From assembly GCA_018396775.1 (NCBI GenBank), contig JAGTRF010000014.1, positions 1 to 38,981 on the forward strand: a stretch of 38,981 bases of DNA, written 5' to 3'. Every line of letters begins with the position of its first letter. Position 1 is the stretch's first letter. Shown here one piece after another: positions 28,082 through 38,981 of this stretch. The notes beneath the pieces are model-generated. The model was not told where the DNA came from and searched no databases. It saw only the letters and a list, made by a program, of their open reading frames with translations. Source of the stretch: Candidatus Bathyarchaeota archaeon. Lineage in GTDB: Archaea; Thermoproteota; Bathyarchaeia; 40CM-2-53-6; DTDX01. The translations under genes were made by a program, and so were the position numbers.

Positions 28082-28591
28082 ATGTCTCATAAAAAAGATT
28101 TTTCCTCAAAAATTGAAGTCTCTCTCAACTTGAAGGTAATAGAAACATCAAAAAGATTAGAAGAAATAATCAATAGTTACGCGCATAAACCAGGTTCATT
28201 AATAATGAGCATGCGAAAAATTCAAGATTTATTTGGTTACGTGCCCATTTCAGCATTAAAAAATCTTTCAGAAAAATCTAAAATTTCTCCAAGCGAGTTG
28301 ATGGGTATAGTAAGCTTTTATCACTTCTTCTCAACCACCCCTAAAGGTTGCTACACGATTAAAGTTTGTATGGGAACGTCTTGCTATGTAAGAGGTGGCG
28401 AACGAATATTAAATTTTCTTAAAAAGGAACTTAAATTGGAACCTGGCAAAACAAGTGAAAATGGCAAATTCTCACTAGAAGTTGTACGTTGTTTAGGATG
28501 TTGCGGTCTTTCACCAGTTGTAGCTATTGATGAAAAAACTTACACGCGAATGAGTGTAAATAAAATGAAGGAGGTTTTGAAACAGTATTGA
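28082..28591 (+). CDS. hydC: NuoE/HoxE/HydC-like [2Fe-2S] subunit of the hydrogenase
   Basis: A 169-residue thioredoxin-like [2Fe-2S] protein of the 24 kDa NADH dehydrogenase family. The cluster cysteines are in CMGTSC (C-x4-C) and RCLGCC (C-x3-C). The N-terminal helical domain has GSLIMSMRKIQDLFGYVP. I choose ATG 28082 because GGTGA precedes it; GTG at 28073 is in frame but lies in that site. Its TGA overlaps the ATG of the next gene (TGATG). It should pass electrons between the FMN subunit and the remaining Fe-S chain. Confidence 0.93.
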   Translation: MSHKKDFSSKIEVSLNLKVIETSKRLEEIINSYAHKPGSLIMSMRKIQDLFGYVPISALKNLSEKSKISPSELMGIVSFYHFFSTTPKGCYTIKVCMGTSCYVRGGERILNFLKKELKLEPGKTSENGKFSLEVVRCLGCCGLSPVVAIDEKTYTRMSVNKMKEVLKQY

Positions 28592-31500
28592 TGGTAACTA
28601 CTTATCGGAAACTGCATTCTATAGAAGATTTTAATAATCTTAGAAAAAAAATTCTTACTCAAGCAGCTCTTGATAAAAGATTAAAAGTAAAAGTTCATTT
28701 AGGAACATGTGGTCTTTCTGCAGGTGCATTAGATGTATGGAAAAAATTTTATGAAGAAATAACCTTTAGAAAACTTGAAAAGAAAGTTGCTCTTTCAAAA
28801 GCTGGTTGTGCAGGATTTTGTAGTTTAGAACCGAATGTAACAATATATGATCCACTTACAAATAAAAATGTAATTTATAAGGAGGTAACACCAGAAAAAG
28901 TTCAAGAAATAATAGATGAGCATATATCAAATGGTCATCCTATCGAAAGGTATACTATAAGCGAGTCGGATCCTTATTTAAAACTTCAAGTGAGAAGAGT
29001 TCTTAGAAATCAAGATATTAATCCGATGAGTATTGAAGATTATATTGCTCGAGATGGATACTTAGCTCTTATAAAAGCTTTAACCAAGATGCCTCCTGAA
29101 GATGTAATAAGTGAGGTGGAAAGATCAGGGCTCAGAGGGAGAGGTGGAGCAGGTTTTAAAACAGGTTTAAAATGGAAGTTTGCAAGAGCTGCTAAAGGAT
29201 ATGAAAAATATGTAGTTTGCAATGCGGATGAAGGTGATCCAGGCGCATATATGAATCGTGCTGTTTTAGAAGGAAACCCCCATTCAGTAATAGAGGGGTT
29301 AACTATAGCAGGATATGCTATTGGAGCGAAACAAGGCTATATATATGTTAGGGCTGAATATCCTTTAGCTGTGGAAACTTTAGAGCATGCTATAAAACAA
29401 GCTAGGGAATATGGTTTACTAGGAAAAAACATACTTGGGACAAATTTTGATTTTGATATAGATATTTGCCTTGGGGCAGGAGCATTTGTTTGCGGTGAAG
29501 AAACAGCTTTAATAGCTTCATTAATGGGTAAAAGAGGCTCTCCTAGACCAAGACCTCCTTTCCCAGCAGAAAAAGGACTTTTAAATAAACCTACCGTAAT
29601 CAATAATGTTGAAACTTTATCGATAGTGCCTTCTATTTTGCTTTATGGAGCGGATTGGTTTAAAGAAGTTGGAAGCGAAAGAAGCCCTGGAACTAAAACC
29701 TTCTGTTTAGTTGGTAAAATTCAAAATAGCGGTGTAGTTGAAGTACCATTAGGAACTCCTCTTGGAAAAATAGTATTTGACATCGGTGGAGGACCAAAAA
29801 ACAAAAAAAAGTTTAAAGCAGTATTGATTGGAGGGCCATCTGGCGGTTGCCTCTCAGCTGAGCATTTAAACGTGTCAGTTGAATATGACACTGTAGATAT
29901 GTTTGGTGCAATAATGGGTTCTGGCGGCCTCGTTGTTTTAGATGAAGATGATTGCATGGTTGACATTGCAAGATTCTTTCTTGAGTTTACTAAAGATGAA
30001 TCATGCGGTAAATGCACACCATGCAGAGCTGGAATACCTCAAATGCTTGAACTTTTAGATAAAATTCGGCGTGGAGAGGGAACTATAGAAGATTTAAATC
30101 GTTTAGAAGAATTAGCAATAATGATTAAAACAACTTCACTTTGCGGTCTCGGTCAAACAGCACCAAATCCAGTTTTAACAACTTTACGTTACTTTAGAAA
30201 TGAGTATGAAGCTCATATAAAAGAGAAAAAATGCCCTGCCGTAGTTTGCCAAGCCTTATTTAAATCTCCCTGTCAACATACATGCCCAGTAAACCTTAAC
30301 ATACCAGGGTATATTTCTTTAATAAAAGAAGGAAGAATTGAAGATGCTTATAAATTAATAAAGCAACGTTTGCCGTTTCCCTCGATTTGTGGAAGAGTTT
30401 GTCATGCTCCTTGCGAAAAGAAATGTCGACGCAGCCAAATAGATGAAGCTATGGCTATAAAATATCTAAAGAAGTTTGTGGCTGATTGGGCTATGGAAAA
30501 AGGCTTAAGTTACACACCTCCAACTTCGAAAAAGAAAACTGCAAAAGTGGCTGTTGTAGGAGCAGGGCCTGCTGGATTAAGTTGCGCTTACTATCTTGCA
30601 ACTTATGGATACAGCGTTGTAGTATTTGAAGCTTCAAATGCTGCTGGTGGACTATTAAGATGGGGTATTCCAGAATACCGTTTACCTAAAAAAATTCTTC
30701 AAAAGGAAATTCAGGAAATAGAAAAGCTTGGCGTTAAAATAAGGTTTAATTCGCGAGTGGAAAGCCTTGATAAATTATTTTCAGAAGGTTTTAAGGCTAT
30801 TTTCATCGCTACAGGTGCATCCAGAAGCATAAAACTTAATTTACCTGGAGAAAACTTAGAAGGAGTTTACGATGCTATTGAATTTCTTAAAAAAGTAAAT
30901 TCTAATGAGGAGGTTGCATTAGGAAAAAGAGTTGCTATAATAGGTGGAGGAAACGCAGCAATAGATTCAGCTAGAGTAGCCCTTAGAAAAGGTGCAGAAG
31001 CTCATTTATTCTATAGACGTGAAAGAAAGGATATGCCTGCAATTGAAGAAGAAATAGAAGCTGCAGAAAAAGAAGGAGTGAAAATTCACTGTTTAACAAC
31101 CCCTATCGAAATAATTGGGGAGAATGGAAAAGTAAAAGCTGTTAAATTAACTCGTATGAGTTTAGGGGAATTTGATAAATCTGCAAGAAAAACAGCTCAC
31201 CCAATTCCAGGTTCAGAATTCATATTTGAAGTAGATAATGTTATTAAGGCTGTGGGTCAAGCACCAGACACATCATTTCTACAAGAACAAAACTTAAAGT
31301 TAACGAAGGAAGGTTGGGTTTTAGTAGATCCTCAAACAATGATGACCAGCCGCATAGGAGTATTTGCAGGCGGCGATATTGTGACTGGACCTGCTACAGT
31401 TATAGAAGCGATAGCAGCAGGTATAAAAGCTGCAAACTCTATTAAAAAGTTTCTTGAGGGCGAAGAACCAAAAATTGAGCAATTCGAAACTATTAAAATA

Positions 31501-31674
31501 CCTTCTACACTACCTTCAGATGAGGAAATGATTGAAAAACCTAGAATTGAACCAATAAAGTTACCTTTGGCTGAAGCTGTAAAAAGCTTTAATGAAGTTG
31601 TTAAAAATTACACTTTTGATATGACTGTGAAAGAATCAAAAAGATGTTTAAGATGCGATCTTGAAGTGGAATAA
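28591..31674 (+). CDS. hydB: NuoF/HydB-type diaphorase fused to a GltD/NfnB-like FAD-NADPH module
   Basis: A 1027-residue fusion. About 30-125: thioredoxin-like domain with three visible cysteines (near 40, 73, 77). About 150-450: NuoF FMN/NAD domain (GLRGRGGAGF, CNADEGDPGAY, GEETALIASL) plus an SLBB region. About 470-520: [4Fe-4S] site SCGKCTPCRAG with Cys near 518. About 548-640: Fer4_20-type Fe-S domain (CQHTCPVN, CGRVCHAPCEKKC). About 655-960: GltD/NfnB-like oxidoreductase with FAD motif GAGPAG, second dinucleotide motif GGGNAA and YRRERK suggesting NADPH. No stop or frameshift occurs at the junction. ATG 28591 overlaps the previous stop; TTG 28588 is an alternative. It probably joins NAD(H), NADP(H), and hydrogenase electrons in one chain. 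Confidence 0.92.
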   Translation: MVTTYRKLHSIEDFNNLRKKILTQAALDKRLKVKVHLGTCGLSAGALDVWKKFYEEITFRKLEKKVALSKAGCAGFCSLEPNVTIYDPLTNKNVIYKEVTPEKVQEIIDEHISNGHPIERYTISESDPYLKLQVRRVLRNQDINPMSIEDYIARDGYLALIKALTKMPPEDVISEVERSGLRGRGGAGFKTGLKWKFARAAKGYEKYVVCNADEGDPGAYMNRAVLEGNPHSVIEGLTIAGYAIGAKQGYIYVRAEYPLAVETLEHAIKQAREYGLLGKNILGTNFDFDIDICLGAGAFVCGEETALIASLMGKRGSPRPRPPFPAEKGLLNKPTVINNVETLSIVPSILLYGADWFKEVGSERSPGTKTFCLVGKIQNSGVVEVPLGTPLGKIVFDIGGGPKNKKKFKAVLIGGPSGGCLSAEHLNVSVEYDTVDMFGAIMGSGGLVVLDEDDCMVDIARFFLEFTKDESCGKCTPCRAGIPQMLELLDKIRRGEGTIEDLNRLEELAIMIKTTSLCGLGQTAPNPVLTTLRYFRNEYEAHIKEKKCPAVVCQALFKSPCQHTCPVNLNIPGYISLIKEGRIEDAYKLIKQRLPFPSICGRVCHAPCEKKCRRSQIDEAMAIKYLKKFVADWAMEKGLSYTPPTSKKKTAKVAVVGAGPAGLSCAYYLATYGYSVVVFEASNAAGGLLRWGIPEYRLPKKILQKEIQEIEKLGVKIRFNSRVESLDKLFSEGFKAIFIATGASRSIKLNLPGENLEGVYDAIEFLKKVNSNEEVALGKRVAIIGGGNAAIDSARVALRKGAEAHLFYRRERKDMPAIEEEIEAAEKEGVKIHCLTTPIEIIGENGKVKAVKLTRMSLGEFDKSARKTAHPIPGSEFIFEVDNVIKAVGQAPDTSFLQEQNLKLTKEGWVLVDPQTMMTSRIGVFAGGDIVTGPATVIEAIAAGIKAANSIKKFLEGEEPKIEQFETIKIPSTLPSDEEMIEKPRIEPIKLPLAEAVKSFNEVVKNYTFDMTVKESKRCLRCDLEVE

Positions 31675-34140: not shown

Positions 34141-35601
34141 ATGGAAAAGAAGGTAATTGAAAATGAAAAATCATATGAGTCATTAATGCTTAAAAAAGAG
34201 ATGGAAGTTCCTGTAACTAGGATTGAGGGGCATGGTAAAATAGTTGTTACGTTAAATGAAAATGGAAGCGTTGCAGATGCGAAATTTATTGTTACTCAGT
34301 TAAGAGGTTTTGAAAAGTTTTGTGAAGGTCGATTAATGTGGGAAATGCCTGTAATAACCTCTAGAATCTGCGGTATATGCCCTGTAAGCCATCATTTAGC
34401 ATCAGCAAAGGCTGTGGATGCAATTTTAGGTGTAGAAATTCCTATTCCAGCGAAAAAATTACGTTTACTGCTTCATATGGGTCAAATAATTCAATCGCAT
34501 GCTTTAAGCTTATTTTATCTTTCATTTCCAGATTTAATTCTTGGATATGATTATGATATTGAAAAAAGAAATATAATTGGGTTGCTTGAAAAAAAACCTG
34601 AATTAGCAAAGAAGGGGATTGAGCTTAGAAAATTTGGTCAAACCATAATTGAAATTTTAGCTGGAAGAAGAGTTCATCCAAAATATGCTATACCTGGGGG
34701 AGTTAGTAAAGCGCTTAAAATTGAGGACCGAGAAGATTTAAGAAAACAGATAGATGAAAAAATCAACGATATAGAATCTTGCCTTGAAATTGTTAAATCT
34801 TTATGCTTAAATCAAGAAGATATTCCAATATCAACCTACTTTATGGGTTTGGTAAATAGAAATAATGAGTTAGAACTTTATGATGGTAACATTAGAGTAA
34901 AGAATCAAAAGGGCGAGATTGTTGAGGAAAAGCTTAACCCAATTAATTACCTATCCATTATAGGTGAGAGGGTTGAAGATTGGTCTTATTTAAAGTTTCC
35001 ATACTATAAAAAAGCAGGTTTCCCTGATGGTTCATTAAGAGTTGGGCCTCTTGCAAGGCTTAATGTTGCAGATAAAATTTCAACACCTTTAGCTGAAGAA
35101 GAATTTAAGGAATTTCAAAAGCTTAAAGAAAATGGTGTGGTTAATGGCGTTATTTACTATCATTACGCTAGAATTATAGAAATGCTTTATGCAGCTGAAA
35201 ACGTAAAAAATCTTTTAGAGGATGATGATATATGCTCAAAAGACATATGGGTTAACTCGATTGAAATTAAAAATTCTGAAGGAATCGGCGTTATAGAAGC
35301 TCCAAGAGGAACGCTTATCCATCACTATTGGGTAAATGAGAATGGGGTTATAACTAAAGTAAATCTTATAGTTTCAACAGTTTTTAACAATATGGGAATG
35401 AATCTAGCCATTAAGGAAATAGCGGTTAAAAACATTAAAAACCTTAAAGTTAATGAAGGAATATTGAATCGTATGGAAGCTGCTATAAGATGCTTTGATC
35501 CTTGCTTATCTTGTTCAACACATGCCATTGGTCAAATGCCATTAACAATTCAAATTGTATCTGTAGATGGAAAAATTGTTAAGGAAATTACTCGAAGTTA
35601 A
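34141..35601 (+). CDS. hydL: [NiFe]-hydrogenase large subunit (HoxH/HydL-like)
   Basis: A 486-residue catalytic subunit. The Ni-Fe ligands are in L1 [11 protein letters not shown] (Cys77, Cys80) and L2 DPCLSCSTH (Cys455, Cys458). VTRIEGHGK (25-33) and the motifs around them are of group 3c/3d type. A 25-residue extension follows His461 of L2, as expected for a precursor trimmed by a maturation endopeptidase after metal insertion. Neither that protease nor the hypABCDEF genes are in this window. Last gene of the operon. It oxidises or makes H2 in the cytoplasm. Confidence 0.95.
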
Positions 35602-35952
35602 AACAACTTAATCCATTTTACTTTTTTAACCTTTATGTTTTATAAAAGTTTAGGCGTTAATAGCTTCTTTTATAATCAAGTTGGTTAACGAAATTAGGTT
35701 TAATCAAGAAAGCGTATTCAAGAATTTCGGCCTAAAACTCTTCCAGTCATAAAAATTCTACTTATATAAACGTTTTCAAAAACCTTTATCAACTTTTAAA
35801 AATGAAAGCTCAAGCCTTAAACGTTAGTATTCCAAAATTAATCTAAGGTGCCTTTAATTAATAAAACAATCAACAACCTTGATTATAAAAAAAGATTTAT
35901 ATGCTTTGAAAGAATATTAAAGTGGTTGGATGTTTTATTTCTGGATGAGAAC
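35602..35952. other. Intergenic region after the hydrogenase operon
   Basis: About 350 AT-rich bases. T-rich runs just after the hydrogenase stop (around 35618-35630, tttactttttt) may end transcription. TATA-like tttataaaag lies at 35639-35648. No gene is supported. A frame reading into the next CDS from 35848 has AT-rich, non-conserved sequence and is treated as non-coding. Confidence 0.4.
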
Positions 35953-36426
35953 ATGAGACTCGGCAAAAAGTCAATTTTAGCTGTTATCCTTTTGTTGCTT
36001 GCTGGAATTGTAACCGTCAGGTGGCTTTTTCTCAGTGAGAAGCTGCAAAGAGGTTTTGGAATATATCTTTCGAAGAGCAATGAACTTGTGATATCGGACG
36101 AGGACATTATATCATACAATAAGACTTCTCATGAAATCAGACTTGCTGCTGGAGGAGTTGAGAAAATTAAAGCATTAAAGGTGCCTGTGGCAGGCAGCCC
36201 CTTCGTGGTAAAGATAGATGGCAAAGAGATTTATGCTGGATCATTTTGGGCATCAACTTCCTCTTTGAGTTATTCAGGAATAGTGATAGATATTCTAAAG
36301 ATTCAAGACAATACCATAAAAATTGAAAAAGGCTACCCATCTCCAGATTTCTTTAAAGGCGTAGATCCGAGAAACAATTCTGAAATATTTGACTACTTTC
36401 AGAAAAAAGGAAAGCTGATTCAATAA
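35953..36426 (+). CDS. Hypothetical protein with N-terminal membrane anchor
   Basis: A 157-residue protein. Residues about 5-27 form a signal-anchor (KKSILAVILLLLAGIVTV), followed by a beta-rich extracytoplasmic domain (ISYNKTSHEIRL, YAGSFWASTSSLSYSG). I prefer ATG 35953, preceded by GGATGAG; an in-frame ATT/TTG-region extension to 35848 adds 35 residues of unlike composition. GC content and codon choice are clearly higher than in all neighbours, suggesting import from another archaeon. The family looks like one of the small membrane-anchored archaeal proteins of unknown role. Confidence 0.6.
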   Translation: MRLGKKSILAVILLLLAGIVTVRWLFLSEKLQRGFGIYLSKSNELVISDEDIISYNKTSHEIRLAAGGVEKIKALKVPVAGSPFVVKIDGKEIYAGSFWASTSSLSYSGIVIDILKIQDNTIKIEKGYPSPDFFKGVDPRNNSEIFDYFQKKGKLIQ

Positions 36427-36504
36427 CAAGCATCTACGTCTTAAATGCGCGAGGAAAATGCAAGCTTGAAAATTGGTAAGATTTTTACTTCAAAATAATT
36501 TATT

Positions 36505-37225
36505 TTAACATGATCCTTCTTTTCTTCCTTCATGAACCAATAATCCTTCTTTAACGTCAAAGCTTTTCATGAAATTCAACAAATTTTTTGTTTCTACGGA
36601 TAACTTAACTTCACCAGGAATCATTTTTTCATTCTTTATTAAAAAATCTATTTCCTTAGCTCCTTTTCTCCAATAAAATTTAGCGTCAATCAAGGAAGCT
36701 ACAACTGCTTCTAAAAGCTTTCCTTTTTCTACTTCTCTGTGAAATCCAAAAATCAGAGACCAATGATAGGGATAAATTTTTTGTAGCTTTCTGCTAGCCA
36801 ATAAAACTGAAACTCTGAAATTTTTTACAATTCTTATCAAATAAGAAAATTTCAAGTAGAACAAATGTTTTACTAACGTCTTCTTAGAAATTTAAGTTCC
36901 TGCTTAACTCATCAAGGTTTAAAATCATACCAGGATTTTGATAGAAACTTTCAACTAACCCGAATAAAAGTTCTTCGTTTACATCTTTAAATTTTATTGG
37001 TAAATCTCTGTAAATTATTTTACCTACAACATTCTCTCTCAAGTACTCTATTATTCTTCTTTCATTCACTTCTTTCACAATCTCTGGGAAAGGTTTTTTA
37101 ATATATTCTGGAAAAGATAAAAATAATTCTTCTTCCCAAATCTTAAAATTCTTCACTTTTCTTCCATTTCCATAAGTATACTTTAGGAAACGTATATTTA
37201 GTTTCCTCAAGGAAACTAAAAACAA
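36505..37225 (-). pseudogene. Frameshifted, N-terminally truncated AAA ATPase (DUF4143 family) remnant
   Basis: Two consecutive minus-strand pieces form one protein of the archaeal ATPase/DUF4143 group. The upstream piece (36884-37225) matches its middle (FPEYIKKPFPEIVKE, KIIYRDLP, PGMILNLDELSRNL). The downstream piece (36505 to about 36890) matches the C-terminus (KKTLVKHLFYL, EKGKLLEAVVA, KEIDFLIKN, DVKEGLLVHEG). The frame changes at about 36886: the expected reading NL-N-x-SKKTL is broken by what looks like a 2-base loss, creating TAA. The whole N-terminal P-loop domain is missing. So the gene is dead, though a separate DUF4143 fragment might still be translated. Confidence 0.72.
37197..37220. 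repeat. Perfect 10-bp inverted repeat (hairpin)
   Basis: tttagtttcc at 37197-37206 is the exact reverse complement of ggaaactaaa at 37211-37220, with a 4-base loop (tcaa). It lies at the truncated 5' end of the ATPase remnant and about 40 bases from the tRNA-like fragment. It could be a terminator, a transposon or recombination scar, or chance; nothing else is known. Confidence 0.6.
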
Positions 37226-37258
37226 AGTTGCTTACTTTTCTGTACTCAAAAAATTAAG

Positions 37259-37301
37259 TGGGCCGGGCCGGATTCATACTCAAATGGGTTTAAGTCCATT
37301 A
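37259..37301 (-). pseudogene. tRNA 3'-end-like fragment (possibly tRNA-Leu UAA)
   Basis: On the minus strand the sequence reads as an anticodon arm (aatggacttaaacccatt) whose loop CTTAAAC would give anticodon TAA. A degenerate T-arm follows, then ccggc and acceptor 3' strand ccggccc plus discriminator A, and then an oligo-T stretch. The matching 5' half (an acceptor strand ggccgg-like and D-arm) is absent upstream, and the T-stem 5' strand does not pair. GC is far above the surroundings. It is best read as the 3' piece of a tRNA gene left by integration or deletion. An intron-split tRNA is not supported by the flanking sequence. Confidence 0.42.
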
Positions 37302-37433
37302 TTTAGAAAGTTGTAGAAATTTAGATTTAATAAAAAATATGTCTAAACTACCTTATAATTAGATTTAGATAGAAAGGTTAAGCGAAGCTCGGATGAATTT
37401 TATAAAGGTTTAAGAGAATGTTTCTTCTCCGCT

Positions 37434-38141
37434 TCAAAAACTACCTTGCTTAACTAATTTTATCACTTTGTTTAACCATATTCTTGTTTTAAGCCAGTTG
37501 TATTCATCAATTAATTTCGTTAATGGCTTTCCTCCATATTTTCTTGATAAAGCTTCTTCTGGTTTTTCGTTTAAATATTTTTCAGAGTATTGCTTTAGTA
37601 GCGTGTTGATTGCATCCTTCATTTCTGTAAGAAAGTTGAAGTAACCTTCCATTGTCATATCACATTCATAATATTTTGCTATTGCTCTGTCCCACATTAC
37701 AAAAAAGCTTGGTTTAAGCAGATGAAGTATTTTTGAAGCGGATGTTGGTCCAACATATTTTATTGAGCTGAAGCTTTCAAAAGCATATTCAATCTTAGTT
37801 TTAACTTCATTTAAATTAGTATAGATTAATGAAGTTTCTAGCTCGTTTAAAATAGGCTTAAACTCGATTATTTTTCTGCAGAGCTCTTGCGGATTCAGCT
37901 TTATTGCCGATTGCCTAACACCCCAAAGCTCAAGAAAGCGTATTATATACCTATAAGTTGCGATAGAATCTAAAGAATCTAGATTAAGCTCTAAAAGTAT
38001 TTTAAAGTAAAAAGAATCGTCAAGAGTAAACAATACTTTCCATAATTCTAGGAGATCCTCAAACTCCTTTAAATTTACCTTACTCAAATACCTTTCCCTA
38101 ACAGAATTCTTATGTAAAGAACGTTTAAAACTAACTCGCAT
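37434..38141 (-). CDS. Hypothetical helical protein with HhH-like motif
   Basis: A 235-residue, mostly helical protein. Residues about 130-160 (YVGPTSASKILHLLKPSFFVMWD) resemble the helix-hairpin-helix segment of DNA-glycosylase-fold proteins, with an Asp after the hairpin as in catalytic positions. No Fe-S loop or other domain is present, and no catalytic Lys is obvious. ATG start at 38141. The gene is alone, with about 200 bases of non-coding DNA on each side. Other possible assignments are few; I do not recognise the family with certainty. Confidence 0.55.
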   Translation of the reverse strand: MRVSFKRSLHKNSVRERYLSKVNLKEFEDLLELWKVLFTLDDSFYFKILLELNLDSLDSIATYRYIIRFLELWGVRQSAIKLNPQELCRKIIEFKPILNELETSLIYTNLNEVKTKIEYAFESFSSIKYVGPTSASKILHLLKPSFFVMWDRAIAKYYECDMTMEGYFNFLTEMKDAINTLLKQYSEKYLNEKPEEALSRKYGGKPLTKLIDEYNWLKTRIWLNKVIKLVKQGSF

Positions 38142-38399
38142 AATGAATTTAAAGATTTCAATCGGCTTAAAAACTGAAAAGCATTTAGGCTTCCTTTCTA
38201 ATTAGCTTATATGTCAACTAAGCTTCATTTATAGCTTAAAATAGGTTTGAGGGCTTAAATAAACCACGCCTTAAGCTTTAAGCGTGAATAGATAAGCGTT
38301 GCTTATAAGCTAAATTAATGTTAACCAAATAACTCCTCCTTCTTTAAAAGAAGAGTGCAGTAAGCTTAAATCCAACGAAGAGAAAACAAAAAATCTATT

Positions 38400-38888
38400 A
38401 TGAAATTTCTTAAGATAAAGAAAAGCATATCAAGCTTTCTTACACAAGAGGAAGGAGGAATAACAAAGAAAGCTTTAATTGGTTTAGGAATTGCATTGAG
38501 TGGAATAGCAATTCAAACAGCTCAAGCTAGACATTCAAGCTCAACAAATATTTGGTATGATAAGCCAAATGTAATTGCTAGACATTCAAGCCATGCTGAC
38601 CATCATAGTTGTAGCTGCCAAAATGTTTGTAAAGGCCATTGTGCAACACAAGGTTGTAATCCTGTGCAATTGCAATGTGGTGTTGTGACTGTCAGTTGTT
38701 CTTATCAAGAATCATGTAAGAAAGTACAAAGTTGTCCAATTGATTGTAGTGATGTTTGTGAATGTCAAATTGTTAGGAAAGCCTGTACTTCTCAATGCTC
38801 AGATCATACAACGTGTTCTTATCAAACAACATGCAAGTCTTATGATGGTTGTACTTCACATGGAAATTGTCCCGGCGTTGTTAAGTAA
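38400..38888 (+). CDS. Secreted cysteine-rich protein with long leader
   Basis: A 162-residue protein. Residues 1-20 end in QEEGG, followed by a hydrophobic segment (ITKKALIGLGIALSGIAIQ, 21-39) and TAQA, which fits signal peptidase cleavage near residue 43. The mature part starts with His/Ser-rich RHSSS and ARHSSHADHHS, then has 18 cysteines in about 90 residues. There is an internal repeat: CSYQ-x2-CK-x4-C occurs twice (SCSYQESCKKVQSC, TCSYQTTCKSYDGC). The EEGG leader resembles leaders seen on some peptide-modification substrates, but no radical-SAM or other maturase is in the window. ATG start; ribosome site is weak. It overlaps the convergent partial gene by 8 bases. Confidence 0.68.
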   Translation: MKFLKIKKSISSFLTQEEGGITKKALIGLGIALSGIAIQTAQARHSSSTNIWYDKPNVIARHSSHADHHSCSCQNVCKGHCATQGCNPVQLQCGVVTVSCSYQESCKKVQSCPIDCSDVCECQIVRKACTSQCSDHTTCSYQTTCKSYDGCTSHGNCPGVVK

Positions 38889-38981
38889 GAATTTTCCTTG
38901 CTCTAAACAATAATGCTAATGCTAATGAAATAGCTCCTAGCATAAAGTTAGGATAAGGGAATTCATCAATTGGTTGATTTT
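38881..38981 (-). CDS. C-terminus of a protein with EFP-type membrane-anchor tail (partial)
   Basis: The frame enters from the right window edge and stops with TAA at 38881-38883. The 32 visible residues are a sorting-type tail: polar NQPIDEFPYP, a hydrophobic stretch NFMLGAISLALALLF, then basic RARK. This resembles archaeal PEF/PGF-CTERM-like signals that mark extracellular proteins for anchoring. The body of the protein is outside the window. It converges on the Cys-rich gene, with an 8-base overlap of the ends. Confidence 0.6.
   Translation of the reverse strand, partial: NQPIDEFPYPNFMLGAISLALALLFRARKILT

Follow-up and report, generated by a model that had tools for sequence, protein, structure and literature searches.

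What is the cysteine-rich protein encoded at the right end of this archaeal contig, and is it the substrate of a peptide-modifying enzyme? The window analyzed here (38,981 nucleotides) is the whole of contig C14 from a 1.33-Mb genome (G000; 24 contigs, 98.5% complete). The 3' part of an archaeal 23S rRNA (positions 1 to 958) and an archaeal RNase P RNA (positions 1054 to 1376) at its left end demonstrate that the contig is archaeal. An earlier note on this DNA had described an open reading frame (ORF) at 38400 to 38888 with 18 Cys residues, an EEGG leader, a secretion signal, HSS and HHS motifs, and two CSYQ-x2-CK-x4-C units, all of which were found in place. The features at the right end of the window are as follows.

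37256 to 38391 (no strand): block common to the window and G025, a genome of the same genus; 94% identity over 37373 to 38391, with homology stopping 8 bases before the ATG
37434 to 38141, minus strand: 235-residue ORF, not a maturase, 95% identical in G025; family searches gave no functional assignment
38400 to 38888, plus strand: complete ORF of 162 residues with an ATG start, HxsA3-type leader, and Cys-rich core
38400 to 38471, plus strand: leader, residues 1 to 24 (KIKKxIxxFLxxEEGxITKK), common to HxsA-type precursors by 33-locus profile (51.1 bits) and alignment
38472 to 38528, plus strand: hydrophobic export segment, residues 25 to 43, with an AQA end, from the sequence and from homologues with the same layout
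38529 to 38609, plus strand: residues 44 to 70, with which the presumed mature part opens, RHSSSTNIWYDKPNVIARHSSHADHHS, from blastp against the L181 protein
38610 to 38870, plus strand: 18-Cys array, residues 71 to 157, from the Cys count; no Pfam match at E ≤ 1
38697 to 38735, plus strand: repeat unit 1, CSYQESCKKVQSC, from the motif and the DNA direct repeat
38814 to 38852, plus strand: repeat unit 2, CSYQTTCKSYDGC, from the motif and the DNA direct repeat
38881 to 38979, minus strand: convergent gene, 3' end only, NQPIDEFPYPNFMLGAISLALALLFRARKILT, truncated at the contig edge, with a stop that overlaps the last bases of the ORF

The ORF has a third-position G+C content of 18.5%, in line with that of other genes. 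EEGG occupies residues 17 to 20 and is followed by KK, the hydrophobic stretch, and AQA. A double-Gly cleavage site at EEGG was considered and rejected, as the second Gly is variable in homologues (mostly EEGK); the conserved KK and hydrophobic segment come after EEG in those proteins. The site of signal peptidase cleavage is probably before R44, after the AQA at residues 41 to 43. HSS motifs lie at residues 45 and 62, with HHS at residue 68. The protein contains 8 His and 18 Cys residues; all of the Cys residues lie within residues 71 to 157, and the last five (C133, C139, C145, C151, and C157) are spaced by exactly six residues. The CSYQ-x2-CK-x4-C units start at residues 100 and 139, and they are visible in the DNA as a direct repeat (83%) at a distance of 117 nt. 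Tandem His-Xaa-Ser repeats were absent; the core has only one H-x-S/N-H unit and three scattered His-x-Ser motifs, a number not beyond chance (p = 0.09 by shuffling). A structure predicted for the protein by itself gave no usable information (mean pLDDT, 41.5).

The only NCBIfam match of the window protein was HxsA3 (NF038309), at 23.5 bits (E = 3.5e-5), below the curated cutoff of 65 bits. Two homologues linked to the radical-SAM maturase HxsB (see below), L155 (40.8 bits) and L181 (28.1 bits), likewise fell under this cutoff, and a leader peptide from G026, another genome of the same order, matched the same model at 25.1 bits. A degenerate DNA pattern was built from the part common to the window and G026 leaders (FLxxEEGxI[ST]KK), and one genome per species was scanned across 84,980 species. 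Seventy-two stretches were returned, 33 of which were the start of small ORFs with an HxsA-type leader, from Patescibacteria, Elusimicrobia, Omnitrophota, and other bacteria and from Nano-, Aenigma-, and Woesearchaeota; most of these ORFs run on into HGSHGSH-type repeats. A profile of the 33 leaders, with the window left out, gave 51.1 bits for the window protein and 53.7 bits for the G026 peptide; none of 4,000 shuffles scored above 8.3 bits. The window protein has the EEGxI[ST]KK motif and the hydrophobic segment of these leaders. Judged from these sequence comparisons, its first ∼65 residues are the leader region of an HxsA3-type precursor. The earlier note knew of no described archaeal family like this protein; the leader family, however, is described (NCBIfam HxsA3 and HxsA4) and is present in DPANN archaea. 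HxsA3 and HxsA4 (NF038313) are His-Xaa-Ser repeat precursors that share with the window protein the FLxxEEGxI[ST]KK leader, the hydrophobic export segment, and a presumed mature part that opens with His-x-Ser. The window protein differs from them in its score under the cutoff and its 18-Cys core without a tandem His-Xaa-Ser repeat, and HxsB and HxsC were not found with it.

HxsB (TIGR03978) was encoded upstream, on the same strand and within 1.4 kb, at 28 of the 33 leader loci and at none of the 39 background loci, which are chance matches to the DNA pattern. Among the five leader loci without HxsB, three have short upstream sequence (0.2 to 1.1 kb), and one (L168) is a second copy whose counterpart on the same contig has HxsB. 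NCBIfam searches of the tested leader loci identified HxsB at 439 and 341 bits (the latter at L181), plus HxsD. This linkage indicates that the leader is that of the precursor of a peptide-modifying system; in complete systems, residues 1 to 24 would presumably carry the peptide to HxsB. To our knowledge, no product has yet been characterized for the His-Xaa-Ser system. The suggestion that the window protein is the substrate of a peptide-modifying enzyme is thus supported by the homology of its leader and by HxsB at the homologous loci, but HxsB was not found in the assembled G000 genome.

The closest relative of the window protein was an Aenigmatarchaeota protein at L181, with 37 of 60 residues identical (62%, blastp, window residues 5 to 64). 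The likeness goes past the leader (HSSSTNIWYDKPN against HTSSTNINYAKPN); both proteins have HxSSTNIxYxKPN there, and both carry another cargo without the repeat. In the L181 protein (L181:4058-5365, minus strand), the place of the repeat is taken by a tandem pair of Hint (intein-like) domains. This cargo sets it apart from the window protein, as does the presence upstream of HxsB (L181:6178-7638), which is separated from the leader protein by a methyltransferase-like gene. Because L181 keeps HxsB despite its Hint cargo, the cargo behind the leader can change.

In the window protein, a Cys array takes the place of the usual His-Xaa-Ser repeat. Cys accounts for 15.3% of the residues after the export segment, compared with ≤6.9% in other members of the family. 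No homologue of the Cys core was found. The Pfam search of the window protein gave no match at E ≤ 1, tblastn of genome contigs and searches of plasmids and phages found no whole-protein relatives, and matches to the Cys part within the class were weak (E ≥ 5e-5, ≤22.9 bits). SCIFF/ranthipeptide and other Cys-rich radical-SAM precursors resemble the window protein in being small proteins with many evenly spaced Cys residues. However, the window leader differs from theirs, the models of SCIFF and other described precursors of this kind gave no NCBIfam match at E ≤ 1, and a SPASM peptide maturase was not found in G000.

The search of all 24 contigs of G000 gave no HxsB above the cutoff of 370, the best score being 48 bits. 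This 48-bit gene, which encodes the only SPASM protein in G000, most closely resembles heme b synthase AhbD. HxsB was found neither in the 38 kb upstream of the window ORF nor on the other 23 contigs. G000 has 21 radical-SAM places, from which 20 ORFs were extracted and compared with HxsB; against a local HxsB model built from the homologous loci, they scored ≤53 bits, compared with ≥209 bits for true HxsB genes and fragments. Among ten G000 radical-SAM proteins scanned with NCBIfam, several were MoaA, TYW1, LipS1, NifB-like, and AmmeMemoRadiSam-like enzymes, and neither HxsB nor HxsC was found. Window positions 35500 to 38981 held no significant relative of the Hxs-locus neighbor ORFs apart from the peptides.

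The earlier note had suggested that the enzyme could lie beyond the right edge of the window. This suggestion finds no support: the enzyme of this family lies upstream, HxsB was found neither upstream of the ORF nor elsewhere in the assembled genome, and the right-edge gene is convergent. The right-edge gene looks like it encodes a C-terminal membrane anchor. The contig ends 93 bases beyond the stop codon of the window ORF, and the ends of other G000 contigs, read in search of the remainder of the right-edge gene, offered several open frames, none of which could be joined with certainty.

The position of the ORF is lineage specific: beyond the common block, G025 has different sequence without such a peptide. 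In G025, a TIGR04084 radical SAM/SPASM gene (L227:5164-6294; 352 bits) adjoins the block, and its counterpart was not found in G000. Two ORF fragments in the window (36505 to 37225, minus strand) resemble the pieces of a disrupted archaeal ATPase gene within rearranged DNA; one of them contains the C-terminal portion of a DUF4143 ATPase (E = 4e-5, below the cutoff). Elsewhere in the window, a hydrogenase gene cluster includes a 1,028-residue ORF (28588 to 31674) that reads, by translation only, as a fusion of a NuoF-type hydrogenase/dehydrogenase subunit and a glutamate-synthase-type FAD domain.

Among 257 genomes of the class, a clear copy of the leader peptide was present in two, G000 and G026; a third listed match was weak (E = 0.007). 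The G026 locus (L061:2790-4062) contains a frameshifted HxsA-type peptide after a radical-SAM/SPASM gene that is split among three frames, and an M23 peptidase gene lies farther on, on the other strand. The radical-SAM relic is not clearly HxsB; its best Hxs-locus relative was an accessory radical-SAM protein (15.5 bits), and such a leader peptide was not found in the flanks of its intact relatives elsewhere in the class. A search of the phylum with a two-sequence leader profile gave weak fragments only, and a search with 17 leaders (a sample without G026) gave nothing above 24 bits apart from the window. Viral contigs yielded two pattern matches, neither of which was a leader. In a further genome (G085; L122:677-2439), a radical-SAM gene is directly preceded by the gene for a 112-residue protein, possibly a separate archaeal RiPP, whose leader is Nif11-like and which has a WPGPIYYP core.

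Taken as a whole, the window protein is probably a variant of an HxsA3-type precursor that has exchanged its cargo for the 18-Cys array and is an orphan of HxsB. Residues 25 to 43 would serve as a Sec-type hydrophobic segment for export, with a cut after AQA suggested by the layout, and the 119-residue remainder would then be released outside the cell. Since the leader and export part are intact, a protein of ∼119 residues is expected to leave the cell, where the Cys array may form disulfides or bind metal. Given an assembled genome without HxsB, the most likely outcome would be disulfide or metal-dependent folding without HxsB modification, or else the protein would be the leftover of a cassette whose enzyme has been lost. 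HxsB-type modification of the window protein, as presumed for other genomes, appears unlikely. The enzyme may have been lost and the peptide kept, or the leader may have been captured by a new cargo; both histories fit.

Three other readings were weighed against this orphan variant. The most serious is that an Hxs cassette, acquired horizontally, is decaying and that the window ORF is a remnant of it without present function. The presence of a clear copy in only two genomes of the class, the frameshifted G026 copy beside a radical-SAM gene in three frames, and the rearranged surroundings of the window ORF, with their DUF4143 ATPase fragments, all point that way. The ORF itself does not: all 162 codons are intact and in one frame, its Cys pattern is orderly, and its third-position G+C content fits other genes. 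A remnant is thus a possible but distinctly less probable reading.

It is harder to sustain a working RiPP precursor, in which HxsB or another SPASM maturase would crosslink the Cys array, for example through thioether bonds, before export. Such a maturase could be encoded in unassembled DNA because the assembly lacks ∼1.5% of the genome and the contig stops just past the gene. Periodic Cys residues and Cys-x5-Cys spacing resemble the targets of SPASM thioether enzymes. This periodicity, the HxsB linkage in homologues, the contig end so close to the ORF, and the G025 radical SAM/SPASM gene beside the common block are consistent with a working precursor. Against it, HxsB in this family lies upstream on the same strand, where 38 kb, like the other 23 contigs, holds none; the right-hand neighbor is a convergent gene; and G025, which owns the SPASM gene, lacks such a peptide. 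We consider this reading unlikely. An unrelated secreted Cys-rich surface protein whose N terminus is HxsA-like by chance would account for a Cys core without a family match, but the leader scores (51.1 bits versus ≤8.3 bits for shuffles) and the identity with L181, which extends past the leader, refute chance likeness for the N-terminal ∼65 residues and make this reading very improbable.

The orphan variant reading extends the HxsA-type leader family, which reaches DPANN archaea and this archaeal order. The leader and the first mature residues are kept, and the His-Xaa-Ser repeat gives way to other cargo, either a Cys array or Hint domains. More tentatively, the HxsA-type leader might be a portable maturation and export tag on unrelated archaeal cargoes (a Cys scaffold here and tandem Hint domains in Aenigmatarchaeota), and the window protein might represent a new class of Cys-rich cargo, crosslinked in trans or self-folding; we hold this broader proposal to be doubtful. 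As the leader is kept while the cargo changes, the part that would be recognized is separated from the cargo, and natural test substrates are gained. Whether HxsB needs the repeat thereby becomes directly testable, with the HxsB of L181 and the window leader.
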